From a virus: DNA of 64,000 bases. Where the stretch lies: positions 1-64,000 of IMG/VR virus record IMGVR_UViG_3300008740_000003; one strand, 5' to 3'. Position 1 is the stretch's first letter; each line of letters opens with the position of its first letter. The notes under the pieces were generated by a model that was given only the letters and a program-made list of their open reading frames with translations, was not told the DNA's origin and made no database searches. The position numbers and the translations under genes are program-made. Positions 18,253 to 42,588 of this stretch are shown one piece after another.

Positions 18253-18267
18253 GGATTTAACAGTAAT

Positions 18268-18275
18268 GATAAATA
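18268..18275 (+). promoter_or_regulatory. Late promoter octamer GATAAATA
   Basis: NATAAATA match 25 nt before the ATG at 18301; AAAAGGA lies between as ribosome binding site. Confidence 0.7.
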
Positions 18276-18300
18276 AAAGATATAAAAGGATTTAACGAAA

Positions 18301-21300
18301 ATGGCTGAGTTTAAACTAGGTAGAATTAAGTTTGTTTGGAAAGGTTCTTGGGCAACTACTACAACTTATTATGTTGATGACGTAATAAGATATGGTGGAA
18401 GAACTTACAATTGCGTAACTAATCACACATCTGGTACATTTCAAACTGATTTAGGTGCTGTAAAATGGCAACTAATGTCAGATGGTATAGAGTGGAAAAG
18501 TGATTGGGTTGCAAATACAACTTATAAACCAAATGATGTAGTAAAATACGGTGGTTACATTTATCTTGCTAACACTGGTCATACCTCAGCGGCAACAGTT
18601 GCTTTAGGATTAGAAGCCGATCAAGCTAAATGGGATTTATTCATAGAAGGTTTTGATTGGAAATCTGATTGGACAATTTCTACAAGATATAAGAAAAACG
18701 ATTTAGTAAAATATGGTGGTTCAGTTTATCTTTGTATAACAGAACACGAATCAGATAACACAACAGCAGTTGGTCTAGAAGGTCAACAAGCTAAATGGGA
18801 AATTTTTGGAAAAGGTTTTGTTTGGTCAGGTGACTGGGCAATCAATACTAGATATAAAGTTAATGACACCGTTAGATATGGTGGACAAATTTACGTTGCT
18901 ATAACTGGACATACTTCAGCGGCAACTGAAGCAGATGGTTTAGAAGCCAACCAAGGACAATGGCAAGCCTTACACAAAGGAATTGAATTCAAAGGTGACC
19001 ACGCAACAGCAACAAGATATAAAGTAAATGATGTTGTAAAATATGGTGCAAACATTTGGATTTGTACAACACAACATACATCAACAGGAATTTTATCTGC
19101 CGATGAAGCTAATTGGTCAATTTTAATTCCAGGTATTGAATTTGAAGATACTTGGAGCAACTCTACAAATTATCAACCAGGTGACTTTGTTACTTACGGT
19201 GGATATAGTTATGTTGCAGATAGAAATAATATTAATAAACTTCCACCTGATAACTCAAGTGATTGGACTTTATTCGTAACAGGATTTAATTTAAGAGGTG
19301 ACTATAATGCCGCAACTGCATACAAACAAGGTGACGTTGTTAGAGTAGGCGGTTTCACTTATCTTGCAATTGCAGATGGAACAGGTAATAGACCACCAAA
19401 TGTAACTAAATGGGATAAACTTAACGAAGGATTATATTGGAAAGGTGCTTGGACAAATGCAACTTACTATGACAAAGGAGATATAGTAAGAGGTACAACA
19501 AACACTACTACAAGTTATCTTTGTATAACAGAACACACATCAAATAACGTTGGTCCATCAACAATTAATCAACCAGACTATCCACCAGGAGCAGGTGTTG
19601 ATACTAGTGCATGGCAATTATTGGCGGGTGGTGCAGAATCTTCTGTATTAACAACGAAAGGTGATCTTTTAATTTATGGTCAATCAGGACCAGCAAGATT
19701 ACCAATTGGTAAAGCAGGACAAACTTTAGTTGTAAATAATGCAGGTGACTTACCTGAATGGGGATACTTTGGTGCAATAGATCAAGTTTATTACACAGGT
19801 CCAGCAGGACAAGACAAACCTTCTCCAGATGCAGGAACAACACTTGACAAACCTTGGAAATCTTTAAGATATGCTTTATGGCAAATTGAACAAGGACCAA
19901 GAAATCCTCAAGGAACTTATTTGTTAGAAAGAAACAAAGCATTCATTCAAGAAGAAACTTTAGCTTGGATTAATGCACAAATTTCAGGAAACACTGCACC
20001 ATTTACAAATGCTTACACATACGACGCTGTTAAATGTAGAAGAGATGCAGGATTTATGATAGATGCACTTTTATATGATTTAAGACATGGCGGAAATGAA
20101 AAATCAAGATATGCAACACTTAGAATTTCAACACAAACAGAATTTGTAAATCATAAAGATGAATTAACAGCTTATCTTAATAGATTAGTTTATATTTCTC
20201 AACAATGTGTAGCCAATAATGCAGGTTATTCTGCTTTACAAGGTACAGTTAATCAACTTATTGATAATAATTACGTAACTGAATCTGCAGTATCAGGAGA
20301 AATTGCAAGTTATGTAAAAATTGCAACAGATTGTCTTGCGGCAGGAAATACAGCTGGAGTTCCAGCAGAAGAAGTTCCACAAACTACATTATTTGCTAAG
20401 AGCGGAACATATGAAGAAGTGTTACCTCTTTCAGTTAAAAAAGGATTAGCAATAGTAGGAGATGAATTAAGATCAACAATTGTTAAACCAGCAGGTCAAA
20501 TTGTTGGTACAAGTGACACACAATATACATTACAAGGTCTTGGTAGACTACAGGCAATTATATCTGATATAGTTACAAATAGTGCTGTAACACCAACACC
20601 AGTAGGCGGAGTTATAACTTTTACAACACCAGGTGCAGACTTAGGTTTTGTTAATGGAACTTATAATAACGTTGCAGTAACAGGTGGTTCTGGATCAGGA
20701 TGTACAATGGATGTAACTGTATTATCATACACAATTACTAGTCTTACTGTAAATCAACCAGGACAAAATTATGCAATTTCTGATTCATTAACAATTCCAG
20801 GAGCAACAATTGGATCTGATGGAGTATTCACAGTTAATAGTGTTACAACAGGAAATAATTTAACACAAAATACAGATGCACCAGCAGGTTCAGGAGCGGC
20901 AGGAACAGCGGCGGCGGCAATTGCACAAAATATTTACGACCATATAGATTTCAAAGTTAATGCTAATGGATCTGATCCAGCATTGACAGGAACAAATACT
21001 GCTCAAGCAGATGCAGGTTATTCAGATGCAAGATTAAGATTGTTAGCAAATATGGATTTTGTTGCTTTAGAAGTTGCAGAATTTGTACAAAGAGCAAATC
21101 CATCTCATAGTAATTTTAAAGATAAATGTTTAGCAGATGTCAAATATTATCTACGAGCAATAATGGATGATATGCAATATACTGGAAATTACAAATCATT
21201 AAAAGCATCTGATTCATATATTAATTCTAGACTTACTACAGGTTCAGCTACAAGCGATATGTTCTATGTAAGAAATGCAACAGGAATTAGAAATATGACA

Positions 21301-24072
21301 GTTCAAGGATTAAATGGAACATTAGGTTCTGCAAACGCTTATGGAACAAAACGTCCAACAGCAGGAGCATATGTATCATTAGATCCAGGCTGGGGAACAA
21401 CACACGAAGAAGTATGGATTACTTCTAAATCACCTTATATACAAAACGTAACAACATTTGGAACAGGATGTACTGGATTAAAAGTAGATGGTGCATTACA
21501 CGATGGCGGTTTTGATTCTGTTGTTGCAAATGACTTTACGCAATTATGTGATGATGGTATAGGTGCATGGATTACAAATTTAGGTAGAGTAGAACTTGTA
21601 TCAGTATTTTCTTATTACGCACACATCGGTTATCTATCAGAAAATGGTGGAAAACTTCGTGCTACAAACGGTAACTCATCTTATGGTGACTATGGTTGCG
21701 TTGCAGAAGGAGTTGATTCTTCTGAAACTGCTATAACAGGAACAGTTGATAATCATAGTGAAGACGCAGATGTTGCCAATGTAATGACAGATGGTAATAA
21801 AATTTTAGCATTCGAATATAATAATGCTGGAAGACAATATTCTGGTGCTACACTTACAATATCAGGAGATGGTTATGGAATTACAGGTGAAACTGCAACT
21901 TATAATACTGGTGGTGTTTACAAAATTAGATTATTAGAAACTAATACAGTAACAAGTAACCTTGGTGGTGCGACATATATGTCTGCTACTAACAATGCAC
22001 AAACAGGTACAGCTACACAAATTACAATAGCTAACGCAGATAGTAACGCCAGTGGTGCATACACAGGTATGGCAATATGGATTACAAAAGGTAAAGGTGT
22101 AGGTCAATATGCATACATCGACGCTTACAATTCTGCAAGTAAAGTTGCAACTGTTAAAAAATATTCAGACGACGCGGCAGGATGGGAAAGATATGGCGGA
22201 GACGCAGTTGAAACTCTTTTAGATGCTACAACAGAATATACAATAGAACCTAGAGTAGTTATTGGTGCTCCAAATAATGATGGTAGTACAGCAGTTAGAC
22301 AAGCAGTTGCAAGAGCAATTGTAACTTCTGAAAAGATTTCTTCAGTAAGAATTATAGATTGTGGTGCAAGTTATACTTCAGCACCAGCAGTAACATTTAC
22401 TGATCCTAATAATACTACAGATGCTCCAGTACAATCATACATAGATGATGGTGTACTAGGTCAACCAACTTTCACTGCAGGTGGAACAGCTTATAATACT
22501 GCAAGTGTAACAATTACAGAAGAACCTACAGCTAAAAACATAACAGCTATTTCACAAGCCACTGTAGCTGTTGTTACATCAGCAGGACATAATCTAGTTG
22601 ACGGAACTAAAGTAACATTTGCAAGTGTTGGTGGAATGTCAGAATTAAACACAGGTGTATGGTATTACATTAAAACATTAACAGTAGATACATTTGGATT
22701 ATATACTAACGATGATTTAACTGCTGGATTAGATTCTACAAACTTTACAACATACACTTCAGGTGGAACTGCAACACCATTTGGTGGACACAGAGATGAA
22801 TTCCAAAACGGAAGATATATTCAAGTAGAAGGTTTATCAAAAGTTCCACAAACAGGATCAAATCTAGAATTTGATGGAATTTCAACTGAAACATTTCCTT
22901 ATGCATATACTCTTATAACTGCAAACAAGGCTTATATAGAAGATGAAGTAATAGCATGGTTTAATACAACTTATCCAGGAATACACAATGCTGGACAAAA
23001 TACAAAATGCGAAAGAGATGTTGGATATGAAATTGATGCAATGGCATATGATATAAAATACGGTGGTAATACAGAAACTATTAGAGTTGCTAAAGCATAC
23101 TGGCAAGGTGTTACTTCTCAATTAGCGGCAGGTGAACAAGCATACGCAGTTGCAGTTAATAACAAAGTAAAAGAAATGCTTAACGATTATATTTTAGATA
23201 ACGTAGCTTGGACAACAACACAAAGTCCAGTTGTTACATCACAAACAACTAATTCTAATAATGGTGAGTTAGGTGTAAAAGACAAAGTTACAAGTTTAAT
23301 TAAAACTTTAAATGATGTAATTGAAAATGGTTTAACTTCTGTACCAACTACACAAGGATTAAACAATCCATACTTTAAATTAGTAAGTGTACAAAAATTA
23401 CGTGGTACTCAAGCTCCATATTCAGCATTATTACAAATTAGTCCACAAATGACAGCCGCTCAAGCTCCAGCACATGGAACTGGTTTATCTGTTAGACTTA
23501 GATATTCACAAGTTAGATTAACTGGTCACGATTTCCTAGGAGTAGGAACTGGTAACCAAGCATCTACAAATTATCCTGGAACGCCAAATAGAACTAACGA
23601 CCAAGAAAGAGAAACTGTTGAAAGAGGTGGTGGTAGAGTATTCTTTACTGCAACTGACCAAGACGGTAACTTTAGAGTTGGTGACTTGTTCTCAGTACAA
23701 CAGGCGACTGGTATTGCATCATTAAATGCAGATGCATTTAACATTTCAGGATTACAAGAACTTCAGTTAGGAGATTTAACACTAGGCGGAACATCTGCTT
23801 CTGTTAATGAATTCTCTACTGACGGTACATTTGCGGCAAATAGCGACAAAATTGTACCAACACAAAGAGCGATAAGAACATATGTTTCATCACAAATTGG
23901 TGGTGGTGCAAGTGCTATTAACGTAAATACTATTACTGCTGGTCAAATTGTGATCACTAGTAATACAATAAGTACAACAACAGGAGCAAGTATCCAAATT
24001 AACGCTGGTGTTAACTTCAAAAAAGGAGTTGCAGGAGCGCCATTGGCAATGAATTACTTGATCCATAGTTAA
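18301..24072 (+). CDS. Giant fibre: ChtBD3-like repeats, beta-helix, helical KCxRD modules, 1923 aa
   Basis: Paralogue of the 1717-aa protein: the same start (MAEFKLGRIKFVWKG), eight ChtBD3-like repeats to about residue 445, a beta-helix region from about 496 (YYTGPAGQDKPSPDAG; AKSGTYEEVLPLSVKKGLAIVGD), 'TLGSANAYGTKRPTAGAYVSLDPG', 'GTGCTGLKVDGALHDGGF' and the same C-terminal blocks. It differs by insertions of predicted helical modules marked 'KCRRDAGFMIDALLYDLRHGGN' (about 575), 'KCLADVKYYLRAIMDDMQYTGN' (about 945) and 'KCERDVGYEIDAMAYDIKYGGN' (about 1565), related to modules in the 2572-aa protein. No catalytic site is assigned. The 105-aa family A protein follows. Confidence 0.75.
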   Translation: MAEFKLGRIKFVWKGSWATTTTYYVDDVIRYGGRTYNCVTNHTSGTFQTDLGAVKWQLMSDGIEWKSDWVANTTYKPNDVVKYGGYIYLANTGHTSAATVALGLEADQAKWDLFIEGFDWKSDWTISTRYKKNDLVKYGGSVYLCITEHESDNTTAVGLEGQQAKWEIFGKGFVWSGDWAINTRYKVNDTVRYGGQIYVAITGHTSAATEADGLEANQGQWQALHKGIEFKGDHATATRYKVNDVVKYGANIWICTTQHTSTGILSADEANWSILIPGIEFEDTWSNSTNYQPGDFVTYGGYSYVADRNNINKLPPDNSSDWTLFVTGFNLRGDYNAATAYKQGDVVRVGGFTYLAIADGTGNRPPNVTKWDKLNEGLYWKGAWTNATYYDKGDIVRGTTNTTTSYLCITEHTSNNVGPSTINQPDYPPGAGVDTSAWQLLAGGAESSVLTTKGDLLIYGQSGPARLPIGKAGQTLVVNNAGDLPEWGYFGAIDQVYYTGPAGQDKPSPDAGTTLDKPWKSLRYALWQIEQGPRNPQGTYLLERNKAFIQEETLAWINAQISGNTAPFTNAYTYDAVKCRRDAGFMIDALLYDLRHGGNEKSRYATLRISTQTEFVNHKDELTAYLNRLVYISQQCVANNAGYSALQGTVNQLIDNNYVTESAVSGEIASYVKIATDCLAAGNTAGVPAEEVPQTTLFAKSGTYEEVLPLSVKKGLAIVGDELRSTIVKPAGQIVGTSDTQYTLQGLGRLQAIISDIVTNSAVTPTPVGGVITFTTPGADLGFVNGTYNNVAVTGGSGSGCTMDVTVLSYTITSLTVNQPGQNYAISDSLTIPGATIGSDGVFTVNSVTTGNNLTQNTDAPAGSGAAGTAAAAIAQNIYDHIDFKVNANGSDPALTGTNTAQADAGYSDARLRLLANMDFVALEVAEFVQRANPSHSNFKDKCLADVKYYLRAIMDDMQYTGNYKSLKASDSYINSRLTTGSATSDMFYVRNATGIRNMTVQGLNGTLGSANAYGTKRPTAGAYVSLDPGWGTTHEEVWITSKSPYIQNVTTFGTGCTGLKVDGALHDGGFDSVVANDFTQLCDDGIGAWITNLGRVELVSVFSYYAHIGYLSENGGKLRATNGNSSYGDYGCVAEGVDSSETAITGTVDNHSEDADVANVMTDGNKILAFEYNNAGRQYSGATLTISGDGYGITGETATYNTGGVYKIRLLETNTVTSNLGGATYMSATNNAQTGTATQITIANADSNASGAYTGMAIWITKGKGVGQYAYIDAYNSASKVATVKKYSDDAAGWERYGGDAVETLLDATTEYTIEPRVVIGAPNNDGSTAVRQAVARAIVTSEKISSVRIIDCGASYTSAPAVTFTDPNNTTDAPVQSYIDDGVLGQPTFTAGGTAYNTASVTITEEPTAKNITAISQATVAVVTSAGHNLVDGTKVTFASVGGMSELNTGVWYYIKTLTVDTFGLYTNDDLTAGLDSTNFTTYTSGGTATPFGGHRDEFQNGRYIQVEGLSKVPQTGSNLEFDGISTETFPYAYTLITANKAYIEDEVIAWFNTTYPGIHNAGQNTKCERDVGYEIDAMAYDIKYGGNTETIRVAKAYWQGVTSQLAAGEQAYAVAVNNKVKEMLNDYILDNVAWTTTQSPVVTSQTTNSNNGELGVKDKVTSLIKTLNDVIENGLTSVPTTQGLNNPYFKLVSVQKLRGTQAPYSALLQISPQMTAAQAPAHGTGLSVRLRYSQVRLTGHDFLGVGTGNQASTNYPGTPNRTNDQERETVERGGGRVFFTATDQDGNFRVGDLFSVQQATGIASLNADAFNISGLQELQLGDLTLGGTSASVNEFSTDGTFAANSDKIVPTQRAIRTYVSSQIGGGASAINVNTITAGQIVITSNTISTTTGASIQINAGVNFKKGVAGAPLAMNYLIHS
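18313..19625 (+). repeat. Eight tandem ChtBD3-like repeats (protein level)
   Basis: Units such as 'WKSDWVANTTYKPNDVVKYGG' of about 50-60 aa, paralogous to the array at 13114-14725 and better conserved between neighbouring units, suggesting more recent duplication. Confidence 0.7.
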
Positions 24073-24894: not shown

Positions 24895-25875
24895 ATGCCA
24901 GCAACAAGTCTTAGAGGATTATTAGGAACTAAACAAGATACTTTCGTAGCATTTGGCGAAGAAAATCTTGAGAAGGGTAGAATATATGTCTACACTCAAG
25001 GTGCCAACTATTCGAGATTATGGTGCGGATTTTGTTTTCACCCAGGTGAAGCAGGAACGGCTACAATAGAAGTTTGGGGAGCTGGTGGTAGTGGTGCAGA
25101 AATGTGCTGTTGCGGATTTGGCTTACCTGGTAATTCAGCGGCATACGTAAAAAGAACTATCTCATTAGCGGCTAATGGTTATATTTGCGGATGTACTGGT
25201 CAATCCTGTGGTAATGGAGATACATTATGTCACAGAGGTTGCTCTGAACCAACTTTCATGAATATTTCCAAAGATGGCACAGCAGGTGGATGTACTTGTA
25301 TTTGTGCTCAAGGTGGAGCAGGTGGCGTTTCTTACTGTTCTTCAAACGAATCATTTTATTGTTGTTATAAAGCAAACGGTTTTTGTGTTACAAAAACTGA
25401 AAACGATCACTGCGGTATTGTATGTAATATGTGCGATGGAAAACATATCGCTCAAGGATATTGCGGAAATATAATGTGTCCAGGAAGAACTTCTTGTGTA
25501 TCAGCATTTGGCTGTCACCCAAGTTGTCCTTGTCAATTCCACTGGCACAATCCGACACCGGCAGGAATGTTCAGTGAAAACGGAGCATATATCACTTACA
25601 ATACAGAAAATAATAATGGATTTTCACAATGGTCAGGTCACGGAGGTCACCAATTGGAAGCATCACTAGGTGCTGGAAGATTCCCAACTGGTGGAATACC
25701 TTGGGCAACTTGCTGGGGAGCAAGTAAGGCTTGTAACTGTTATGAAGCAGATCCATGTATACCACACGTTCCAGTAGGAATGGGAGGTCACGGACCAATG
25801 CCTTGCGATGGAGTAAGAGATCACGCAAACAGAGGTGGCCATGGTGGAGTTAGAATTAAATGGATTACAGGATAG
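24895..25875 (+). CDS. Cys/Gly-rich adhesin-like protein, copy 1 of 3
   Basis: A 326-aa protein with about 31 cysteines (near 9.5%) and very high glycine. The N-terminal half has 'ATIEVWGAGGSGAEMCCCGFGLPGN', the opening of the Gly-rich domain of phage tail-tip proteins. The C-terminus 'RDHANRGGHGGVRIKW' matches the closing strand of such domains. In between are CC, CxC, CxxC motifs (CTCIC, HPSCPC, CNC). Shared landmarks with the next two genes: NLEKGxIY, EMCCCG, HRG/HSGCS, FYCC, CGIxCN, CNCYExDxC, MPCDGVRDH. Likely receptor-binding tip proteins held by disulfides or metals; function not demonstrated. Confidence 0.6.
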   Translation: MPATSLRGLLGTKQDTFVAFGEENLEKGRIYVYTQGANYSRLWCGFCFHPGEAGTATIEVWGAGGSGAEMCCCGFGLPGNSAAYVKRTISLAANGYICGCTGQSCGNGDTLCHRGCSEPTFMNISKDGTAGGCTCICAQGGAGGVSYCSSNESFYCCYKANGFCVTKTENDHCGIVCNMCDGKHIAQGYCGNIMCPGRTSCVSAFGCHPSCPCQFHWHNPTPAGMFSENGAYITYNTENNNGFSQWSGHGGHQLEASLGAGRFPTGGIPWATCWGASKACNCYEADPCIPHVPVGMGGHGPMPCDGVRDHANRGGHGGVRIKWITG

Positions 25876-25884
25876 GATAAAATT

Positions 25885-26892
25885 ATGGCATCATTAACGA
25901 CATTATTGCAAACAAAATATGATGGGATAGCGGCTGGAGAAACTAACCTGGAAAAAGGTACAATTTATACTTTTTATCCTTCCAACGATTATAACACAAA
26001 CTTCCAATGTCACGTATGTTGGAAACCACCTGCAAACGGTACAGCACTTTTAGAAGTTTGGGGAGCGGCTGGATCAGGTGCAGAAATGTGTTGTTGCGGT
26101 GGAGGAATACCAGGTAACCCAGGTGGTTATGCTAAAAAACAACTAGCGGCTTTTGGTGCAAGTTGGTCAGATTGTTTTGTTTGTTCAGTTATTGGTTTAT
26201 CATGCGGTAACTCAGATACTTTAAGTCACAGAGGACGTTCAGAACCAACTCAAGTTTGTTGGTTTGCCGGCGGAGCAGATGGATGTATTTGTTCTGAAGG
26301 TGGTCAAGGAGGATGTTCTATTTGTTCTACTGGTAATGCATTATATTGTTGTTTTGTAGCACAAAATTATTGTCATACACAAGGTGGAAGCACTTATTGT
26401 GGAATAATTTGTAATTATAGAGATGATGGTGGAAACAGTTATGACGGTGCAGATTATTGTGCATTTGCTTATGGCGGAGATGTAAACTGTTATGGTGGAT
26501 TTAGTTGTTATTACTTTAGAGGATGTCAACCAAACTGTAACTGTAGATATATTGCAGTAATTAAAGTTCCACCTGGAATGGTTTCAGAGTGCGGTGGAGA
26601 AGTTCAATACGCACACGATGAAGATAGTGAAAAAGTTTATCACTCAGGTTCAGGCGGAATTATGGGAGTTATGGAACCTCTTAATTTAATGACAAGAAGT
26701 CCTACACAAGGTTCACCTTACAACGCTTGTTGGACAGGTAATGACTCTTGCGGTTGTTATCAAGATCAAGGATGTATTCACTTCTTTCCAGGAGGAATAC
26801 CAGGACAAGGACCAACACCGTGCGATGGATATAGAGATCACGCATGGAGAGGTGGAAACGGAATATTAAGAATTAAGTTTATAGCTTCGTAA
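25885..26892 (+). CDS. Cys/Gly-rich adhesin-like protein, copy 2 of 3
   Basis: A 335-aa tandem paralogue with about 30 cysteines. Landmarks: NLEKGTIYTFYPSNDY, 'ALLEVWGAAGSGAEMCCCGGGIPGN', SHRGRSEPTQVC, ALYCC, YCGIICNY, 'CGCYQDQGCIHFF', 'TPCDGYRDHAWRGGNG'. The central part (nt about 26400-26560) is expanded and tyrosine-rich relative to the other copies, the kind of variation expected in a receptor-contact region. The 9-nt gap to the upstream copy has no late promoter, so both are likely cotranscribed. Same inferred role as copy 1. Confidence 0.6.
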   Translation: MASLTTLLQTKYDGIAAGETNLEKGTIYTFYPSNDYNTNFQCHVCWKPPANGTALLEVWGAAGSGAEMCCCGGGIPGNPGGYAKKQLAAFGASWSDCFVCSVIGLSCGNSDTLSHRGRSEPTQVCWFAGGADGCICSEGGQGGCSICSTGNALYCCFVAQNYCHTQGGSTYCGIICNYRDDGGNSYDGADYCAFAYGGDVNCYGGFSCYYFRGCQPNCNCRYIAVIKVPPGMVSECGGEVQYAHDEDSEKVYHSGSGGIMGVMEPLNLMTRSPTQGSPYNACWTGNDSCGCYQDQGCIHFFPGGIPGQGPTPCDGYRDHAWRGGNGILRIKFIAS

Positions 26893-26897
26893 AAAGG

Positions 26898-26905
26898 AAT
26901 AAATA
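26898..26905 (+). promoter_or_regulatory. Late promoter octamer AATAAATA
   Basis: Lies 5 nt before the ATG at 26911, so a transcript from it would start at or next to the ATG. The AAGGA just upstream could serve translation from read-through mRNA. Confidence 0.55.
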
Positions 26906-26910
26906 TTATT

Positions 26911-27882
26911 ATGGCAACATTAAAAAACATATTAACAACAAGACAACCGGCAAGTATGTCAGAAAATAACCTAGAAAAAGGTTACATTTATGCATATTCT
27001 CCGGGTACTCAATTTGCTAATTTTTGTAATGGTGTTTGTTGGACAGCTATAGCAGATGGAAAAGCTATTGTAGAAATTTGGGGAGCTGGTGGATCTGGTT
27101 CTCGTATGTGTTGTTGCGGAGATGGATTACCAGGTAATGCAGGAGCATATTCTAAAAAAACAATTCAAGTAAATCAAGGTGATACAATTACAGCTACTTT
27201 AGGAATGGCTTGTAGAGCTCACCCACTTTGTCACTCAGGATGTAGTGATTCAACTCAATTATGTTACATAACAACTACTGGAAGTGCAGATGGTTGTATG
27301 TGTGCAAGAGGTGGATATGGTGGAAAATCTATGTGTACAACTGGTACATCTTTCTATTGTTGTTACAGTGCAGAAGGTTTCTGTACTAATAGATGTAACA
27401 ATGACAATTGTGGAATGACTTGTAACTGGTGTAATGGTGCATGGGAAGCCTTAGCATATGGTGGAGATATAAATTGTTGTGGACAAATAGGCTGTACTAG
27501 TTGGTTCGGCTGTTGCCCTCACTGTAAATGTTTCTTCCAAAGACACGCTCCTATACCTTCAGGACTTTTTGCGGAAAATGGAGCATTAATTACGTTCCAA
27601 ACAGAATCAGATGGAACACCTATGTCTAACTGGTCAGGTAACCAATTATTCCAATATTATGCGGCTCTTAATTTGGCTACTAAATCACCAAGACAAGGAA
27701 ATCCAAGAGCTTATTGTTGGAGATCAGACAGATCTTGCGGTTGTTATGAATCACAAGGATGTGCTAATTTCTTACCAACAGGAGCAGGTGGACTACCGCC
27801 AATGGCTTGTCCAGACGTTAGAGACCACGGAATACGTGGAGGACACGGAGGAGTTAGAATCAAGTTTATAGCTTCGGCATAA
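26911..27882 (+). CDS. Cys/Gly-rich adhesin-like protein, copy 3 of 3
   Basis: A 323-aa paralogue of the two preceding genes with about 31 cysteines. Landmarks: NLEKGYIYAYSPG, 'AIVEIWGAGGSGSRMCCCGDGLPGN', CHSGCSDSTQLC, FYCC, CGMTCNWCNG, 'CGCYESQGCANF', 'MACPDVRDHGIRGGHGGVRIKF'. It keeps nearly all the cysteine positions, so the pattern is under constraint and not a by-product of composition. It may have its own late promoter immediately upstream. Probably part of the same tip complex as copies 1 and 2, perhaps giving alternative or hetero-oligomeric receptor binding. Confidence 0.6.
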   Translation: MATLKNILTTRQPASMSENNLEKGYIYAYSPGTQFANFCNGVCWTAIADGKAIVEIWGAGGSGSRMCCCGDGLPGNAGAYSKKTIQVNQGDTITATLGMACRAHPLCHSGCSDSTQLCYITTTGSADGCMCARGGYGGKSMCTTGTSFYCCYSAEGFCTNRCNNDNCGMTCNWCNGAWEALAYGGDINCCGQIGCTSWFGCCPHCKCFFQRHAPIPSGLFAENGALITFQTESDGTPMSNWSGNQLFQYYAALNLATKSPRQGNPRAYCWRSDRSCGCYESQGCANFLPTGAGGLPPMACPDVRDHGIRGGHGGVRIKFIASA

Positions 27883-32908: not shown

Positions 32909-34765
32909 ATGGCAGTAAATTATAAACAGTTTGAAGCAAACTATGGATTTAAGAGTCCAGGATTTACGGTTGACAATCTTGGTAATGTAATAGTAAGAAC
33001 AATTACTAATACATATACTCCAACTGCGACTGACTCTATAGATTATACAGTTACAGAATCTACAAATAATTTTAGTATTACAGATAAAGAAAGCAATAAT
33101 TTAGGATCAAATCCTGTTCTTGATTTAAAAAGAGGTACAACTTACGTTTTTAGCCTTGATACTACATCTGTTACATTTAATATTTTTGCACCTGATACAA
33201 ATAATAATTCAGTACCTGGTGAGCTTTATAATACTGGGTTATCACATACTACAAGTATTAATGGACAAAATCTTTCAACTGATACATGGACAGTTCAACA
33301 AACTTGGCAACAAGAAACAACAGCATATAGTAGACCTGTAACTGTTGTTGTACCTAATACTGTTGGAACATCCTTAGAAGGTAAACAAATTCCTGTAATT
33401 ATATCTTTACACAATGCAAATCAATCATCCGGAAATGCTATTACACATTTAAATTATCTAACAGATAAAATTATAGTTGCTCCTCAAGGTTATAGTAAAG
33501 AATGGAATGTTGGATATTCATCTAGTAAAGCAGATGATATAGCATATCTTGATGCAATAATAGATAAGTTAGCAACTTTTGATAACGTAGATATAAGAGA
33601 AATTTCAATTCATGGACAAGGACTTGGTGGTCAAATGGCACACCAATATGCTTTACAAACAACAAAAACAAATATTAAAAATGTAATTATTGAATCAGCA
33701 TTATTTAATGAAGATCAATATAGAGAAAATACAAACATTTTCTACAAAATGGCTTTATCTAATCTAGGAGATTCAACAGCAGTTTCTTGGACACCTGTAA
33801 CACCTTTAACTAAATCAAAAGTTGTAATGTTTCATGGTGAAGAAGATTTAGCGTATCCATTTAATGGAGGAGTTGTAGCAGGCGAAACTATTTTAACAGC
33901 GGCAACTACAATATATGGATGGGCAAAAGCCGTTGGTACTAGTCAAAGTAAATTAACATCTGGAACACTACAAAGTGATGGAGCAAGTTTATATTCTTAT
34001 AATTCAGGTGCAGTAGCATTATATGGCTATCCTAATGTAGCACAATCTTGGGAAGGAGCTGTAAAAACAAGCATTCAAACAAAAGTAAATGAAACAGCAA
34101 CACCTAGTTCATTTTTAGATATTCCTACAGCTTCAACTGTATCAGGAGCAAGTGCTCAAGCAAAAACTAAAGGACTTTTAAGTTTTATAGTACCAATTGA
34201 TGCCCCAGATAAAATATTTTATGGTGATGGAGACAAAATACCTAATGCGGCAATGAATATAACTAATCCTACGGTAACAGGAATTGGATCATTTAGTTCT
34301 ATTCTTAATACAGGAAATTTAATAAGTTCAGGTGTAGATGCAACTATAACAATTAGTCCTACAGGTACTGGTACAGTAGATATTAATCCAGCTGGCGGTG
34401 GTACTATAAACAATGTAAATGTTAATGCATCAAATTTAACAACATCTGGTGAAGTATCAATAACACCTAATTCAGACGTAACTATAAGCCCGCAAATAAG
34501 TGGAACACTAACAATTAATCCTACAGCAACAGGAGTTTTAAATAATGTAACTGTAGGGCAATCTGTTCCTAAAGCTGGGTCTTTTACTACTCTCGTTTCG
34601 ACGTCAGGAACGTTAAATAGTACTACAATTGGTACAACAACACCTGCTAATGCTGGATTTTTACAGGCATCGGGCGAAAATGCGCCTTCAACAGGTAAAC
34701 ACTTGACCAATAAAACTTATGTGGACGCAACTAGTATGGTTTATTCTATTGCGTTAGGAGTATAA
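32909..34765 (+). CDS. Fibre protein with degenerate esterase domain nested in cupredoxin-like domain, 618 aa
   Basis: Residues about 143-410 match the PHB-depolymerase/feruloyl-esterase-like (LpqC type) alpha/beta hydrolases: 'IPVIISLHNANQSSG', 'DKIIVAPQGYSKEWNVG', 'DDIAYLDAIIDKL', 'HGQGLGGQMAHQYAL', 'FHGEEDLAYPFNGG', 'AQSWEG'. The nucleophile elbow G-x-S-x-G reads G236-Q-G238-L-G240, and the usual H-x-W-P-G reads Q379-S-W381-E-G, so Ser and His of the triad are replaced; D313 remains. Flanking pieces ('LKRGTTYVF..VTFNI' and 'FIVPIDAPDKIFY...NAAMNI') align with the two halves of the cupredoxin-like domain at the end of the 642-aa protein, without its copper ligands. Residues 455-618 are fibre repeats ending YVDATSMVYSIALGV. 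Confidence 0.7.
   Translation: MAVNYKQFEANYGFKSPGFTVDNLGNVIVRTITNTYTPTATDSIDYTVTESTNNFSITDKESNNLGSNPVLDLKRGTTYVFSLDTTSVTFNIFAPDTNNNSVPGELYNTGLSHTTSINGQNLSTDTWTVQQTWQQETTAYSRPVTVVVPNTVGTSLEGKQIPVIISLHNANQSSGNAITHLNYLTDKIIVAPQGYSKEWNVGYSSSKADDIAYLDAIIDKLATFDNVDIREISIHGQGLGGQMAHQYALQTTKTNIKNVIIESALFNEDQYRENTNIFYKMALSNLGDSTAVSWTPVTPLTKSKVVMFHGEEDLAYPFNGGVVAGETILTAATTIYGWAKAVGTSQSKLTSGTLQSDGASLYSYNSGAVALYGYPNVAQSWEGAVKTSIQTKVNETATPSSFLDIPTASTVSGASAQAKTKGLLSFIVPIDAPDKIFYGDGDKIPNAAMNITNPTVTGIGSFSSILNTGNLISSGVDATITISPTGTGTVDINPAGGGTINNVNVNASNLTTSGEVSITPNSDVTISPQISGTLTINPTATGVLNNVTVGQSVPKAGSFTTLVSTSGTLNSTTIGTTTPANAGFLQASGENAPSTGKHLTNKTYVDATSMVYSIALGV
34756..34760 (+). promoter_or_regulatory. Shine-Dalgarno sequence for the Cys-rich mini-gene
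   Basis: AGGAG, 8 nt before the ATG at 34769, lying inside the last codons of the upstream fibre gene. It supports real translation of the 31-codon ORF. Confidence 0.6.
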
Positions 34766-34768
34766 AAA

Positions 34769-34864
34769 ATGGCTTGCGAAAACGAAAAATGTAAATGCGA
34801 AAATTGTACTTGTGATCCTTGTTTATGTACGGAAGACAAACAGTGTGAGTGTGCAAAGGAATAA
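34769..34864 (+). CDS. Metallothionein-like 31-aa protein
   Basis: ATG at 34769, TAA at 34862-34864, giving 31 residues of which 9 are cysteine (positions 3, 8, 10, 13, 15, 18, 20, 26, 28). The core CKCENCTCDPCLC is an uninterrupted C-x-C-x2-C-x-C-x2-C-x-C array followed by a last C-x-C, and the rest is Glu, Lys, Asp and Asn with no aromatic residue. This is the composition and spacing of metallothioneins, which bind Zn, Cu or Cd through thiolates. The gene has its own Shine-Dalgarno sequence, lies 3 nt after one fibre gene and 5 nt before another, and is on the same strand, so it is probably translated late in infection. Metal binding is inferred; a small Cys-rich zinc knuckle is the alternative. 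Confidence 0.7.
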   Translation: MACENEKCKCENCTCDPCLCTEDKQCECAKE

Positions 34865-34869
34865 TTTAA

Positions 34870-37800
34870 ATGGCTAAGAAAAAATTAAAAAATTATATAT
34901 TTCAAACAGGAATTCCTAAAAGCGGGAATAATTATCCTATTGCTCACAATCTTATCTCTAAAAACGTAGACTGGATTAAAGATGAGATGATGGGGTACAT
35001 CTTAGAAAAAACAAATTTACATACAAAAGCAGATATATATCCTAATACATCTAACAGAATTACAAACAATAGAACTTTTATTAAAGATGAAGTATGGGCT
35101 TGGGTGGCGGCACAAGTTGCAGGTAACGTTGCACCATTTGCCGGTTTCACTAAAACTGAAGACACTATAGAAGCAGATGTAGAAAAAGTAGTAGATGCTA
35201 TTGCACGTGACGTTAGATATGGTGGTAATGAAAATTTAAGAACTCAAACAGGAACATATTTTATAGATGGTGTACTTCAATTAGCTAATAGTGGAGATCC
35301 TGAAATCGCATATTGGACTTATATGCGAACACTTATAAAAGATTATATTTTACCTGGAAGTGCATTTAGTTCTTTACAAACTAGTACATCTTACACTCCT
35401 ACAGGAGCAACATATACGCCAGCAACTGGTGATATGATTTTAACTATTGGTGCTCACACTTTAACAGTTGGACAATCTGTTAGAATTAGTACACTTGGTT
35501 TAACTTTTACGTGTGCAAAGGACAACAATGCAACAAATCACAGTTATCCAAGAGCGTCTGGTTCAAACGCACCCGGTGGTGCTGATTATTTTTATAATAA
35601 ACCAGTTAAAATTACAGCTAAAGATTCAATGTCAATTACTATAAATGTAGGAGTATCTAGTAATACATCAGCACATACTTTTGTAAGTGCTTCTTCTGGA
35701 TCTGTACAAAGTGGAACAATACAAGATTTAACAGGAACAAATGCTGAAAGTGCCGGTGTTACAGATTATGATACAAAATTAGGTCAATTAATTAATACAG
35801 TTGACAATGGATATCTTCAATTACCAGCTTTAATAAGTAGCTCTTATAAATTTGAAAATTTTACTTATAATACAGACAAGTGTAATAGAGATTATCAATT
35901 TATTCTTGATGCATATCTTAATGATTTACGTTACAATGGTAACAAACAAACAAGATTTATTGCTTCTAAATTCTGGGTTGGAACAACTCCTCAGATAGAT
36001 GGTGATAGACAACCAGAAATTGCCGCAACAAATTGGGTTAGAGATTTAATAACTAATTACGTTTTAGCAAATAGATCAGTAAACTTCACTCCAACAAATG
36101 CAGTATACACACCTACAACTGGAGTAATGACATTAACTATTGGAACACACCCAATAACAGTTGGTCAATATATTAGAATTAATACAAATAGTTTGACGTT
36201 TACGTGTGCTATGGATAACCATGGATCAAATCATACATATCCAAGAGCAACAGGCTCGAATGCACCAGGTGGGGCTGACTATGCCTATAATGAACCAGTT
36301 TTAGTTACAGGAATAAGTGCAGATTCAATTACTGTAAACGTAGGAATATCAAGTAATACAACAGCACATACTTTTGTAAGTGCTACTACAGGTGCAGTTA
36401 CAAGATCAAAACAAAGCCCAGTTGTTACTACACAATTTACAGATGGAACTCTTTCTGAATCAAATGCGGCAAGTAGAATAGTAACATTGTCAAATATTAT
36501 TGCTGATGTAAAAGAATTTGGTTTAGATAATTTACCAACATTAGAAAAAAATGAAGTATCTAGTTTAAAAGTTGTTAATCCAGGTGGACAAGTTAATCAT
36601 GAAGATATTTTATTAATTACAAACACTACAAGAAATACTGTATTATATAATTTTGCAGATGCAAGTCTTGGTTGTACAGTAGAATATGAAAAAGAAGAAG
36701 ATGATGATTTTAAAGCATTCTTACAAGGTAGTGATACTGTAACTACAATATTTTTAAATGCTGATACTAGTACACACTCATTAACTGATGCAGTATCTAT
36801 TTTTATAGAAGGCGGAGAACTTAAAACAAGACCATTTGATTTTGGTACTGACGCAATTGAAAGATTTAGAATTGCAAAACCACAATCAATGATAGATGCT
36901 GACTTTGAGTATGGACTACAGCCAACCAAGTGGCAAGCGATTGCAACACAAAGAGGTTATCCATCAATTTACGAAGTACCGGGAACAGATGTAGATATTG
37001 CATCAGTAACAACTGACGCATCAACTGGTACAGCAGGAATAGGTGCATCATTAATAACTGTAACAACAGTTGGTCCTCACTCCATGTTAGCAGGAGATCC
37101 ATTAACTATTATAGGTTTTGCAGGATCAGGAGTAGAAGGGGCAGGTAGAGCCCAAGGGTCATTTGTTGTAAATGCTATAACATCTAATAAAATTTTTAAT
37201 TACTATGCAAAAGCAAAAGTAGGAACATCAAACGCACAGGTCATATCAACTAAATTTACTCAAATGCGTAAAGGTGCATTTTATACTGGAGCAGATTTAG
37301 GAGAACCGACTTTCTCTGTTGTAACTCAAGGATCAAGTGGATCAGTTGCAACTTCATTAAAAGTATTATCAGGACAAACAATTGTTCCATTTACTGGAAC
37401 AGCTCCTCCAACAGGAGCACCAGTGGCAGGAACAGGTATTGCAACTGGTACACAAATTACAGCAATTACAGGTTCAGGTGGAGCAATAGTTAGTCCAAAA
37501 ATTAAAGGAGATTATGCTTCAGGTGTAACTCAAGTTGAAGTCGTAGATGCGGCTGGTATTTTACAAAATTCTGTAATGGATAGAGGTGATGGGTTTGGTA
37601 CAAATATTATAAACGTTAATGGAATGGTTTTAACTTTATCAAGTCCCTTACAATCAAGTTTAATAGGTGATCAAACAGTTTATCAAAATGTTGCTGGATT
37701 AAACAGATCACCAAATGGTTCAGGTGCAACTTGGAATGTAAGTTGGACTGGTGGAACTTATACTGTTGCAATATCTGTAACTGGTCTAAATTATCAAGTA

Positions 37801-40800
37801 GGTGATGCAATAACAATTCTTGGAACGGCTTTAAGTGCATCAACACCAGCAAACGATTTAACAATTAATGTAGATAGTGTAGATACTGCAGGAGAAATTC
37901 TTTCTTTCAGTTATTCAGGAACTGCATTTGACGGAACAGGATCAGTATCAAACGCAACTGGTAGTGTACCAGGTGGCGTAGGAACAGGCGGCACATTTAA
38001 TATTACTAAAACAGCTGGAACATATTCAGTAGCATTGGCAAGTAAAACATATACAGCTATAACTCCTGCATACGCAGGCGGTAATGGTGCTGGATCTATT
38101 TGGGACATAACAATATTGAATAATACTTTTAGTGCCGTTACAATGTCAAATGGTGGAACTGGTTTCATTGTTAATGATTCATTAAGATTTGCAGGAACAG
38201 AATTTGGTGGAGTTGGAGATACTAATGAATTATTAATTAGAGTTACTGGTGAAAGTTCAGGAGTAATAACAGGTCATTCATCTGCAGGTACGGCTCCTGA
38301 TGCAGTAGTAACATACTCAAACCCAGCATTTACTACAAGTGGTTCAGGAACATTAGCACAATTTAACGTAACAAGAACAGGTACAACTTATTCAGCAGTT
38401 ATAACAGGATTAGGAACAAATTACGCACAAAATGATACTATAACAATTGATGGTGGTAATTTAGGTGGTGCATCAACAACAAATGATTGTACATTAACAG
38501 TTGCAACTGTAGACGGTTCAGGTGGAATAACAAGTGTTACACCTACAGGTACAGCCGTAAACACACAATCCTGGACTGGATTAACATCAGCTAACAACTA
38601 TGTAGGTTCAGGAGCTCAATTTAGTGTTACTAACGCAGGCGGTGGTGGTAGCTATAGTAATGTTACAGTAACGTCAGTTGGAGAACATTATACATTAGGT
38701 CAAGAATTAAAAATATCAGGAACAACATTAGGAGGCTTATCTCCTACACACGATTTAACAATTACATTGGATACAGCATTAGGAGCCAATGACGCAATTG
38801 TACAAGGTAATTGGACAGATAGTGGTAATGCTTTACCAGGACCTGAATCAATGGCTTATGTAGTAAATGATATATTAGAAGTTTCTGGTTCGGCTTTGGG
38901 CGGAGTTAATACGACCAATGATGCATACGTTAGAGTGTCTAGCGTAGACGCAGACGGGTCTATTACAGGATTAGCTGTTAGTGGAACAGGAACTGATGGA
39001 GACGTAACATATACGGAAATACCAGAATGGGATGGTTCAACGATACCAGGATGGACTACAAACCAATCAGGTACAGGTGCAACATTTACAATTCAAAGAG
39101 TAGGAACAGCTTATACAGCCACAGTAGTAGCGATAGGATCAGGATTTGTAGGAACAGAACAAATAACAATTTTAGGAACACACTTAGGTGGTGCAACACC
39201 TGGCAATGACGCTTCATTTACTATTTCAACAGTTGACGGATCAGGTGGTATTACAGCCATTAGTGCAGTAACAGGAACCGCGGCTAATACTCAAACATAT
39301 ACAAATGCACCTACATCAAAAAGAATAGGTCAAGGTGAAGCATTTGATATTAGTATTTCAGGTGGAAATTATACTGTAGATGCAATTGCACAGGCAGGTA
39401 CAAATTTCTGGGTAGGACAAATAGTTAAAATTTCTGGATCAACATTATATGGTGCTTCACCAGGAAATGATTTATCATTAGAAATTACATCAATAGATGC
39501 AGTATCAACAGGCGGAATAACAGGCGTAACTGCTACTGGAAGTGCTAACACAGGTACTGGTGCTGTAGGAACATTAATAGGTGGAAGTAATAGACCACAG
39601 GCTGGTGTTGGAGCAGTATTCTACATAACTAGATCATATACAAATGATTCATCAACTACATATACAGAAGCAACAGTTTCATCTTTAGGAACAGGTTATA
39701 ATGTAGGAGATCAAATTGTAGTTTCCGGTTCAAGTTTAGGTGGAGGAACACCTACGCATGATTGCAGTATTACTGTTCAAGCTGTAAATTCATTTGGTGG
39801 TATAACACAATGTACTCATTCAGGTAGTGCAGTAACAGGAACAGGTGTATCAGTTTATTCATCTATTACTTTATCAGATGCAACTACACAAGTTTTACCT
39901 TCTTCATCTACAATAACTTATAGTGCGATAGCAACAATACAAGTACAATTTTTAACACCACACGGTTTAGTTCCAGGAGATGGTTTCTTAGTAACTATTG
40001 GATCTGATAATGGAAGTAATAATCATTTATTAGCATCAGGACCATTCCTTGTTACAGAACTTCCAGCAACTAATCAATTAAGATTCCAAGCTAGAGCTCC
40101 AGGACAAATTACGGATCAGGATTGGTCTGGATTCGTATATGTTAGACCAGATTCATTCTTCGTACATAGACCATTTGATGGAGGTGTACAATTAGGAACA
40201 GGTGGACCACAACATGGTGCACAGGCGATAAGACAATCTAAAAAATATATTAGATATCAATCAGGTAAAGGTATAATGTATACAACGGGTGCCTTGTTTG
40301 CTCCTTCTTATGATATTTTAAATATTGTAGCAGAAGGTAAAACACTTGGTTCAGTTATATCAGTTACTACAGATGAAGTTGATCACGGTTTACAAGTTGG
40401 TGCAATTATAACATTAATTGGAATAGCACAACAAGAATTTAATGATGATTATACAGTAACTCAAATAGTAAATGAAAGAACATTTAAAGTTACTGCTCAA
40501 AGTACTTTAAGTATGTTAACTCCAGAATTTAAAGATCAACCACAAGTATCATTAAAAAATTGGAATGGTGCAACTGTAAGATCAGGTATATTTGATGATC
40601 AAAATGGAATTTTCTGGGAATATGATGGTGTAAACTTAAATCTTGTACAAAGAACAGCTACAAGACAATTAGCAGGAACAATTTCAGTAAATCCTGATTC
40701 TAATACAATTGCAGGAACAGGAACAAGATTTAGAGAACAATTAAAAGCAGGTGATAGAATAGTAATAAGAGGTATGACTCACGTTGTATCTAGTGTTACG

Positions 40801-42588
40801 GATAATGTAACAATGAATGTTACTCCAGACTATAGAGGAGTTAATGCTTCATCTGGTGTTAAAAGTTGTTTAGTATTTGATAAAAAAGTTAAACAAGCTA
40901 ACTGGAATTTAGATAGAGTAGACGGAACAGGAGCTAGTGGATATGATTTAAATGTATCTAAGATGCAGATGATCGGTTTACAAATGTCCTGGTATGGAGC
41001 AGGATTTATTGACTATATGACTAGAGGTGGTGATGGTAACTTTATTTTCTGTCACAGAATGAGAAATTCTAACATCAATACAGAAGCATATATGAGAACA
41101 GGTAACCAACCTGTACGTTATGAAGTTACAAATGAAGGTCCTAATGGTAAACTTTCAGATAATTTAACTGCAGGAGATACAACAATAAGATTAATAGATG
41201 CTTCTTTCTTCCCACCAGGTGGCGGAACACTTTATATAGATAATGAAATTATAACATACACAACTGTTACTGGTAATAAATTAACAGGTGTTACTAGAGC
41301 AACTCAATTAACTAACTTTTCTGCAGGAGCTACTAGATCATATACAGCAGGTCCGGCGGCTGAACACTTTAGAAATACAGGAGTTGTATTAATTAGTAAC
41401 TCAGCAAGTCCAATTATATCACACTGGGGATCATCTTACATAACAGATGGTGACTTTGATGAAGAACGTGGATATCTGTTTAGTTACTCAGCAACGAATT
41501 TAGAATTATCAACTACGAAAAAAACTGTGTTCCTAATAAGATTAGCACCATCAGTTGCTAACGCTTTAACAGGAGACCTTGGAGATAGAGACTTGCTTAA
41601 CAGAGCCCAGTTGCTACTTGAAGGTATAGAAATTACAACTGAACCTGAAGCTACTAATCCAGGTTCACTAGTTGTACAAGGGGTTATTAATCCTCAAAAC
41701 TATCCAATTGATCCAAGTGATATAGGTTGGACGGGACTGTCAGGAACTGCACAAGGTGGTCAACCATCATTTGCTCAAATAGCGGCAGGTGGTTCGGTTA
41801 ACTGGAACGGTGGTGCAACTCAGGTTACAGCAACAGCAGACACATCGGCGGCAATTTCAACTCAAGTTACAAACAACTGGTGGAACATGGGTACTTGGTA
41901 TAACAATTATTCATACTGGTTAAAAGAAGATGGTCCAGGAAACAACAATGGTTTTGATGACAGAAATATTAAAGTGGGAGATTCAGTAAGTGGTGGTAGT
42001 TTCCCTGCAAATACAATTATTACAGAGCTTTATGAATATTCTTATTACTACCTAGCATACTACAGTAATAATCACGGTGGTATTCCAATGGGAACACCTA
42101 TTACGTTTTCTATGGGAGGTACATTAACTAATACAAACTACTTGTACATGGATCCAACTTCATGGGAAGCTTCAAATGCCACACAAGGTACAGAATTAGA
42201 AGACGCTAATTTTCCAGCTGGTACATCAGTTATTAGTGTGGATCCAATAGCAAGATATGGTCCAGTTAGTGGTGGTACAAATTATTACAAAGTAACGTTT
42301 TCACAAACGTCTACCGGGGCTATTGCCGCAGGTGCAAGTGTTACGTTCTTATTTGGTAATCCACCATATGCACAACCAGGTGAAACGATCTTTTCATTCG
42401 TTGCACAGCCAGGTGAAAGAGCAACATTATCTCTTCATCCGATCAAGGAATTGACTAATACTACATTAGGTGGAAGAGGAACATTTCCTAATGGTCCAGA
42501 TGCGTTAGCAATTAACGTATACAGAACATCAGGTGCTGGAGCAGTTAACGGTACAGTTACACTGCGTTGGTCAGAAGCTCAAGCGTAA
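34870..42588 (+). CDS. Giant modular virion protein, 2572 aa
   Basis: The largest gene in the window. N-terminus MAKKKLKNYIFQTGIPKSGNN. Residues about 75-140 and 330-400 are helical modules with 'EKVVDAIARDVRYGGN' and 'KCNRDYQFILDAYLNDLRYNGNKQTRF', related to those in the 1923-aa fibre. Between and after them are two copies (about 181-280 and 414-512) of the FTC domain also found twice in the 642-aa protein. Residues about 950-1665 are eight repeats of 'G..Y..gd.i.I.Gs.LGG.sp.nDltitv..vd..GgIt...tGtA'. The remainder (about 1700-2572) is a long unique beta-rich region with 'GTRFREQLKAGDRIVIRG' and 'LSDNLTAGDTTIRLIDASFFP'. Probably a long fibre or baseplate-attached protein. Its stop abuts the convergent cupin stop. 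Confidence 0.7.
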   Translation: MAKKKLKNYIFQTGIPKSGNNYPIAHNLISKNVDWIKDEMMGYILEKTNLHTKADIYPNTSNRITNNRTFIKDEVWAWVAAQVAGNVAPFAGFTKTEDTIEADVEKVVDAIARDVRYGGNENLRTQTGTYFIDGVLQLANSGDPEIAYWTYMRTLIKDYILPGSAFSSLQTSTSYTPTGATYTPATGDMILTIGAHTLTVGQSVRISTLGLTFTCAKDNNATNHSYPRASGSNAPGGADYFYNKPVKITAKDSMSITINVGVSSNTSAHTFVSASSGSVQSGTIQDLTGTNAESAGVTDYDTKLGQLINTVDNGYLQLPALISSSYKFENFTYNTDKCNRDYQFILDAYLNDLRYNGNKQTRFIASKFWVGTTPQIDGDRQPEIAATNWVRDLITNYVLANRSVNFTPTNAVYTPTTGVMTLTIGTHPITVGQYIRINTNSLTFTCAMDNHGSNHTYPRATGSNAPGGADYAYNEPVLVTGISADSITVNVGISSNTTAHTFVSATTGAVTRSKQSPVVTTQFTDGTLSESNAASRIVTLSNIIADVKEFGLDNLPTLEKNEVSSLKVVNPGGQVNHEDILLITNTTRNTVLYNFADASLGCTVEYEKEEDDDFKAFLQGSDTVTTIFLNADTSTHSLTDAVSIFIEGGELKTRPFDFGTDAIERFRIAKPQSMIDADFEYGLQPTKWQAIATQRGYPSIYEVPGTDVDIASVTTDASTGTAGIGASLITVTTVGPHSMLAGDPLTIIGFAGSGVEGAGRAQGSFVVNAITSNKIFNYYAKAKVGTSNAQVISTKFTQMRKGAFYTGADLGEPTFSVVTQGSSGSVATSLKVLSGQTIVPFTGTAPPTGAPVAGTGIATGTQITAITGSGGAIVSPKIKGDYASGVTQVEVVDAAGILQNSVMDRGDGFGTNIINVNGMVLTLSSPLQSSLIGDQTVYQNVAGLNRSPNGSGATWNVSWTGGTYTVAISVTGLNYQVGDAITILGTALSASTPANDLTINVDSVDTAGEILSFSYSGTAFDGTGSVSNATGSVPGGVGTGGTFNITKTAGTYSVALASKTYTAITPAYAGGNGAGSIWDITILNNTFSAVTMSNGGTGFIVNDSLRFAGTEFGGVGDTNELLIRVTGESSGVITGHSSAGTAPDAVVTYSNPAFTTSGSGTLAQFNVTRTGTTYSAVITGLGTNYAQNDTITIDGGNLGGASTTNDCTLTVATVDGSGGITSVTPTGTAVNTQSWTGLTSANNYVGSGAQFSVTNAGGGGSYSNVTVTSVGEHYTLGQELKISGTTLGGLSPTHDLTITLDTALGANDAIVQGNWTDSGNALPGPESMAYVVNDILEVSGSALGGVNTTNDAYVRVSSVDADGSITGLAVSGTGTDGDVTYTEIPEWDGSTIPGWTTNQSGTGATFTIQRVGTAYTATVVAIGSGFVGTEQITILGTHLGGATPGNDASFTISTVDGSGGITAISAVTGTAANTQTYTNAPTSKRIGQGEAFDISISGGNYTVDAIAQAGTNFWVGQIVKISGSTLYGASPGNDLSLEITSIDAVSTGGITGVTATGSANTGTGAVGTLIGGSNRPQAGVGAVFYITRSYTNDSSTTYTEATVSSLGTGYNVGDQIVVSGSSLGGGTPTHDCSITVQAVNSFGGITQCTHSGSAVTGTGVSVYSSITLSDATTQVLPSSSTITYSAIATIQVQFLTPHGLVPGDGFLVTIGSDNGSNNHLLASGPFLVTELPATNQLRFQARAPGQITDQDWSGFVYVRPDSFFVHRPFDGGVQLGTGGPQHGAQAIRQSKKYIRYQSGKGIMYTTGALFAPSYDILNIVAEGKTLGSVISVTTDEVDHGLQVGAIITLIGIAQQEFNDDYTVTQIVNERTFKVTAQSTLSMLTPEFKDQPQVSLKNWNGATVRSGIFDDQNGIFWEYDGVNLNLVQRTATRQLAGTISVNPDSNTIAGTGTRFREQLKAGDRIVIRGMTHVVSSVTDNVTMNVTPDYRGVNASSGVKSCLVFDKKVKQANWNLDRVDGTGASGYDLNVSKMQMIGLQMSWYGAGFIDYMTRGGDGNFIFCHRMRNSNINTEAYMRTGNQPVRYEVTNEGPNGKLSDNLTAGDTTIRLIDASFFPPGGGTLYIDNEIITYTTVTGNKLTGVTRATQLTNFSAGATRSYTAGPAAEHFRNTGVVLISNSASPIISHWGSSYITDGDFDEERGYLFSYSATNLELSTTKKTVFLIRLAPSVANALTGDLGDRDLLNRAQLLLEGIEITTEPEATNPGSLVVQGVINPQNYPIDPSDIGWTGLSGTAQGGQPSFAQIAAGGSVNWNGGATQVTATADTSAAISTQVTNNWWNMGTWYNNYSYWLKEDGPGNNNGFDDRNIKVGDSVSGGSFPANTIITELYEYSYYYLAYYSNNHGGIPMGTPITFSMGGTLTNTNYLYMDPTSWEASNATQGTELEDANFPAGTSVISVDPIARYGPVSGGTNYYKVTFSQTSTGAIAAGASVTFLFGNPPYAQPGETIFSFVAQPGERATLSLHPIKELTNTTLGGRGTFPNGPDALAINVYRTSGAGAVNGTVTLRWSEAQA
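35410..35700 (+). repeat. FTC domain copy in 2572-aa protein (1)
   Basis: Encodes 'YTPATGDMILTIGAHTLTVG', 'FTCAKDNNATNHSYPRASGSNAPGGADY' and 'ITINVGVSSNTSAHTFVSA'. Related copies lie at about 11701-11990, 12037-12330 and 36109-36400. Confidence 0.75.
36109..36400 (+). repeat. FTC domain copy in 2572-aa protein (2)
   Basis: Near-identical in stretches of DNA to the copy at 12037-12330; both contain the run AGTTTGACGTTTACGTGTGC followed by TATGGATA, pointing to recent exchange or duplication between two fibre genes 24 kb apart. Confidence 0.75.
37716..39861 (+). repeat. Eight degenerate tandem beta repeats (protein level)
   Basis: Each unit of about 80-95 aa has a strand ending in 'Y..GD.I.I.G..LGG', then 'TP.NDLTI.V..VD..GGIT', then a Ser/Thr-Gly linker. 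Conserved at protein level and diverged at DNA level. Confidence 0.65.

Follow-up and report, generated by a model that had tools for sequence, protein, structure and literature searches.

In cellular organisms, the smtB-smtA system pairs a metal-sensing repressor with its metallothionein. In marine phages, genes for the Fe-S assembly scaffold IscU and for A-type carriers are already known as auxiliary genes (Nishimura et al. 2017, PMC5332604). A search of the open-access literature gave no description of phage or viral metallothioneins. Here we examined a stretch of 64,000 nucleotides (hereafter, the window; positions 1 to 64,000 of the IMG/VR record IMGVR_UViG_3300008740_000003, 89,496 bases in full), in which a 31-aa mini-protein is encoded among virion genes. 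The features of the window to which the text refers are as follows.

24895-25875, 25885-26892 and 26911-27882: three tandem Cys-rich virion-like paralogues, about 325 aa and about 30 Cys each
32909..34765, plus strand: 618-aa fibre-like protein of the upstream gene, its middle part resembling an alpha/beta-hydrolase (weak Pfam match; PHROG of unknown function)
34756..34760, plus strand: AGGAG ribosome-binding site of the mini-gene, 8 nt 5' of its ATG, within the final codons of the upstream gene
34769..34864, plus strand: the mini-gene, a 31-aa metallothionein-like ORF with nine Cys, C-x4-C-x-C-x2-C-x-C-x2-C-x-C-x5-C-x-C
34769..34865, plus strand: presence/absence segment of 97 bp, comprising the ORF and 1 further nt and missing in contigs L480, L481 and L483
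34856..34860, plus strand: AAGGA within the final codons of the mini-gene, probably serving the gene downstream as ribosome-binding site
34870..42588, plus strand: virion structural protein of 2572 aa, encoded downstream (by match to PHROG families of that kind)

The mini-gene product, MACENEKCKCENCTCDPCLCTEDKQCECAKE, carries Cys at residues 3, 8, 10, 13, 15, 18, 20, 26 and 28 (9 of its 31 residues) and contains no Phe, Trp, Tyr or His. It combines the features by which metallothioneins are described, namely small size, a Cys content of at least 20%, CxC/CxxC clusters and few or no aromatics. The ORF lies 3 nt from the upstream ORF, which ends at 34765, and 5 nt from the downstream ORF, which starts at 34870. 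The array C-x-C-x2-C-x-C-x2-C-x-C occurred once in the window and in none of 100 dinucleotide shuffles, and once across the full 89,496-base record. The segment 34769-34864 is a genuine gene, beyond chance. The first-pass annotation of this DNA, which had described a 31-aa ORF with nine Cys, no aromatics, an AGGAG site and gaps of 3 and 5 nt, was borne out by the sequence in all these respects. As to its placement of the ORF between two fibre genes, both neighbours are virion or fibre-like; the 2572-aa protein matches virion structural PHROGs, and the 618-aa protein belongs to a PHROG of unknown function.

The host of the mini-gene is a T4-like myovirus, with a gp15-like tail-sheath stabiliser, a sheath protein, a T4-type terminase and gp9/10-like and gp32-like proteins in its 89,496-base record. 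The 618-aa protein (32909-34765) showed a weak match to the chlorophyllase Pfam family, and its expected nucleophile motif reads G-Q-G-L-G, suggesting that the hydrolase-like middle may bind rather than catalyse. The region 13099-24072 contains a pair of very long genes, with products of 1717 and 1923 aa that carry five family 5/12 carbohydrate-binding modules each, and the product of the second matches tail fibre PHROGs. The three Cys-rich virion-like proteins reported in the earlier annotation are indeed present (24895-27882), with a VWGAGGSG...CCCG motif; the one paralogue tested matched only a PHROG of unknown function. A Pfam scan of 30 window proteins did not detect the type 1 copper domain reported along with them.

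Searching viral small ORFs for the Cys array, as the first-pass annotation had proposed, was productive. Three pattern scans of IMG/VR and one of genome contigs were carried out, with patterns that fixed only the central Cys residues. The scans recovered at least 162 small ORFs of 20-53 aa, representing at least 99 distinct sequences, and most of these ORFs were preceded by a good ribosome-binding site. Exactly nine Cys were present in 74 of the 92 distinct sequences analysed, the mean Cys content was 29%, and any aromatic residue was present in 10 of the 92. The consensus was M-C-x-N-E-x-C-K-C-E-N-C-T-C-D-P-C-E-C-T-x-E-N-x-C-G-C. The outer Cys columns, which had been left free in the search patterns, were conserved (83/94, 76/85 and 71/80), as were N, T and P residues besides the Cys spacing. 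Both TGT and TGC were present in each Cys column, indicating selection on the residue. The window protein thus belongs to a large, conserved and apparently previously undescribed family of phage mini-proteins, which are shorter than the lengths that gene callers and protein-family libraries usually cover. The motif CxCxxCxCDPCxC was also observed within larger phage proteins of 59-708 aa (L013, L020, L058, L072, L078, L096 and L107), suggesting that it may be a portable metal-binding segment.

This conservation bears on the idea that the mini-ORF is a Cys-codon-rich leader peptide, making translation of the next gene depend on the supply of cysteine. The ORF has the appearance of one, being short, rich in Cys codons and placed directly before a large gene whose ribosome-binding site falls in its final codons. 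However, the Cys spacing and the N, T and P residues are conserved, the 5-nt gap leaves no space for an attenuator, the genes downstream of family members are very varied, and the cellular member on L267 is followed by a terminator-like sequence rather than by a regulated gene. We rejected the leader peptide as having hardly any likelihood.

Close relatives of the window phage were informative about the status of the mini-gene. In three contigs (L480, L481 and L483), in which the upstream gene is 85% identical, TATAAAAA is joined directly to TTAAATGG, whereas the window has ATG...TAAT between TATAAAAA and TTAAATGG. No second copy of the mini-gene was found elsewhere in the records of these contigs, one of which is 88 kb. 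Persistence in close relatives, which had been set as a check on the gene, therefore did not hold, and the loss of exactly the mini-gene marks it as accessory rather than false. A second, less exact empty site was found in L289, at an iscU-type locus. Comparison by blastn of the window with L118, a 14-kb contig of a dissimilar phage, showed only 96 nt in common, at 84% identity and bounded exactly by the ORF. In more distant relatives of the window phage, another family member, MPCNNPNCQCENCTCENCTC[GR]E, lies elsewhere in the genome, directly before a gene upstream of the terminase. Taken together, the empty sites, L118 and the relocated member point to repeated gain, loss or relocation of the mini-gene. 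The mini-gene is an accessory cassette with gene-precise boundaries, and the clean empty sites mean that a gene as short as about 100 bp can come or go as an exact unit.

These observations also weigh on the proposal that the mini-protein is a virion-assembly factor, supplying the adjacent fibre proteins or the Cys-rich virion proteins with metal or free thiols, or holding these for them. Such a role would fit a gene that is flanked by virion genes 3 and 5 nt away, in a phage that also encodes three virion-like proteins of about 30 Cys apiece. However, the same pair of genes also occurs with an empty site between them, and relatives of the mini-gene occupy entirely different operons. Moreover, 46 IMG/VR loci carried relatives of the Cys-rich virion protein and only 3 of the 46 showed the mini-gene (short contigs may conceal some), and it was absent from relatives with a 95%-identical Cys-rich protein. 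A link with the Cys-rich virion proteins is thus no requirement for the mini-gene. We regard a role in virion assembly as improbable, and the earlier suggestion that the mini-protein loads metal into virion proteins is weakened by the same comparison.

To characterise the surroundings of the family, flanking genes were clustered and Pfam was run on representatives. Among the matches listed, IscU scaffolds lay beside family members at 45 loci, with 29 distinct mini-proteins, and A-type Fe-S carriers at 19 loci; further recurrent neighbours were M15 peptidase (35 loci), Hsp20 (32 loci) and a weak SNase-like match (31 loci). T4 neck protein, gp15 and terminase genes also recurred near family members. 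In a reverse search starting from IscU, a family member was present at 33 of 80 loci, with one further match (L286) judged spurious, whereas a control search from the window terminase gave 0 of 80 loci despite more sequence scanned (Fisher p ~4e-12; the loci are phylogenetically non-independent, so that their shared ancestry makes this comparison overstate the number of independent events). An IscU record labelled as an Acinetobacter phage proved to be a chromosomal isc operon and was left out. The mini-gene is thus associated with iscU in phages other than that of the window, in at least three arrangements with iscU or A-type genes: it follows iscU at a distance of about 50 nt, precedes it with a nuclease-like gene separating the two, or starts inside the iscU stop. 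The family, its mobility and this association with Fe-S assembly had all escaped the first-pass annotation. At six loci, a 15-20 aa version with six Cys (CxCxxCxCxPCxC) starts in the region of the iscU stop codon, and in two contigs (L007 948-1375 and L037 745-1165) the six-Cys mini-gene overlaps iscU by 8 nt.

The main rival to a general metal buffer is that the family serves Fe-S cluster biogenesis specifically, acting as a carrier of iron, sulfur or clusters or as a guard of IscU, and using the host ISC system where the phage lacks iscU. In accordance with this, iscU or A-type genes adjoin or overlap the mini-gene in the several arrangements above, a Fe-S assembly gene is present in the same short locus for 29 of the 99 distinct mini-protein sequences, and the phage IscU proteins retain their three conserved Cys regions. 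On the other hand, most loci, the window included, have no Fe-S gene in reach, genes for Hsp20, M15 peptidase, neck and terminase proteins also recur nearby, and in both cellular relatives the partner is an ArsR-type metal regulator and not an isc gene. We consider a dedicated Fe-S role unlikely. Neither IscU nor an A-type carrier was found in the 89,496-base record of the host phage, which may be incomplete, suggesting that the Fe-S link may not apply to this phage. It is conceivable, although doubtful, that mobile metallothionein-type microproteins of 15-50 aa are companions of phage Fe-S assembly in iscA-iscU-mini operons, guarding the scaffold or feeding it with metal in infection, and spreading between unrelated phages as gene-precise cassettes of about 100 bp.

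The cellular relatives, recovered in the one scan of genome contigs, were found in two Oscillospiraceae metagenome-assembled genomes, possibly of termite-gut origin to judge by their record names. In both, an ArsR-family regulator (PF01022) lies directly upstream of the mini-gene with a 4-nt overlap (L267 3353-3798; L268 7013-7446), and in L267 the terminator-like sequence noted above lies 3' of the mini-gene. The C-terminus of the regulator is a Cys-rich tail (CHCGPDCSCLHCC in L267). Within the order to which the cellular relative belongs, a search of 295 genomes matched the seed genome alone. No ArsR-type regulator was seen adjoining the window mini-gene. By analogy, the order of regulator and mini-gene would be the arrangement expected of a metal-sensing repressor and its metallothionein, and it appears to be the most direct pointer to metal.

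We prefer the hypothesis that the mini-protein is a cytosolic metallothionein-type thiolate chelator, which we consider probable; metal binding, its stoichiometry, the metal concerned and the benefit in infection are what we infer. This reading draws on the conserved Cys of the family, on the ArsR-family regulator of the cellular relatives and on the neighbouring IscU and A-type carriers, as well as on a profile match to the metallothionein 1m0j, on a stretch resembling SmtA, and on a model that shows neither helices nor sheets and has no Foldseek match, these last three being described below. Because there is no hydrophobic signal-peptide-like stretch, the thiols would be expected to be reduced in the cytosol. 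The nine Cys, on a flexible chain, would wrap a small metal-thiolate cluster; by analogy, the presence of nine Cys and no His suggests a Zn3/Cd3 or Cu(I)-rich thiolate cluster, and the stoichiometry might resemble that of nine-Cys metallothionein domains, with about three divalent Zn/Cd or about six Cu(I). The mini-gene, a single-gene accessory cassette, sits in-line in virion-gene operons and is probably translationally coupled. During infection, the mini-protein most likely scavenges or buffers thiophilic metals freed or mis-bound as the host is dismantled, and where a phage brings its own iscU and A-type carriers, the mini-protein would prevent these metals from reaching the Fe-S scaffold. 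If true, this would make the family a widespread phage-encoded metallothionein family and allow marine viruses to act directly on the trace metals of their hosts. The pairing with iscU leads to a testable idea, namely that phages rebuilding Fe-S proteins in infection may need a thiolate guard against Cu/Zn.

No Pfam, PHROG or NCBIfam model matched the window protein at E 10, no Pfam model covered the 26 family members that were scanned, and PF02069 (SmtA/BmtA) matched neither the window protein nor any of these 26 members at E up to 10. In the eukaryotic metallothionein Pfam families, one of the 26 members matched PF12749 at E 9.2, which is not significant. The family profile gave a single match in the PDB, the metallothionein 1m0j, at an E of 0.71 that amounts to no demonstrable homology. 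Doublesex (1lpv), a single-sequence PDB match at E 0.098, was dropped as a chance Cys match because the profile does not recover it. The AlphaFold model contained no helices or strands of useful length (pLDDT 79.5, pTM 0.33) and had no Foldseek match in the PDB, as can be expected if the protein is folded by metal. Searches by tblastn of cultured phages or plasmids, with three family members as queries, gave one match at E=10 over half the query, or none (the low-complexity filter may hide some), and blastn of the mini-gene region against phages gave no match. The earlier term 'metallothionein-like' is well supported for the protein type, given nine conserved Cys, 29% Cys, few aromatics, the weak 1m0j match and ArsR beside the cellular relatives, but not at the level of families, as no Pfam metallothionein family matched at a usable score.

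Compared with known systems, the phage Fe-S genes described in PMC5332604 are the commonest neighbours of the mini-gene, whereas the main text of that study makes no mention of metallothionein or cysteine and the mini-gene occurs also in phages lacking IscU and A-type carriers. The vertebrate-type nine-Cys domain of 1m0j (MT_nc) shares with the mini-protein nine Cys, CxC/CxxC clusters, a chain of about 30 residues and the lack of aromatics, and differs in that its Cys spacings come in another order. Relative to SmtA/BmtA (PF02069; PDB 1jjd), the mini-protein is half as long (31 aa), without His or aromatics, and the aromatic/His-bearing part of SmtA is missing from it. However, the profile aligns NCTCDPCLCTED with KCACEPCLCNVD of SmtA over a similar 12-residue stretch, the two share a local CxCxPCxC (NCTCDPCLC against KCACEPCLC in SmtA), and, as with SmtA, a gene of the ArsR/SmtB family lies upstream of the cellular relatives of the mini-gene.
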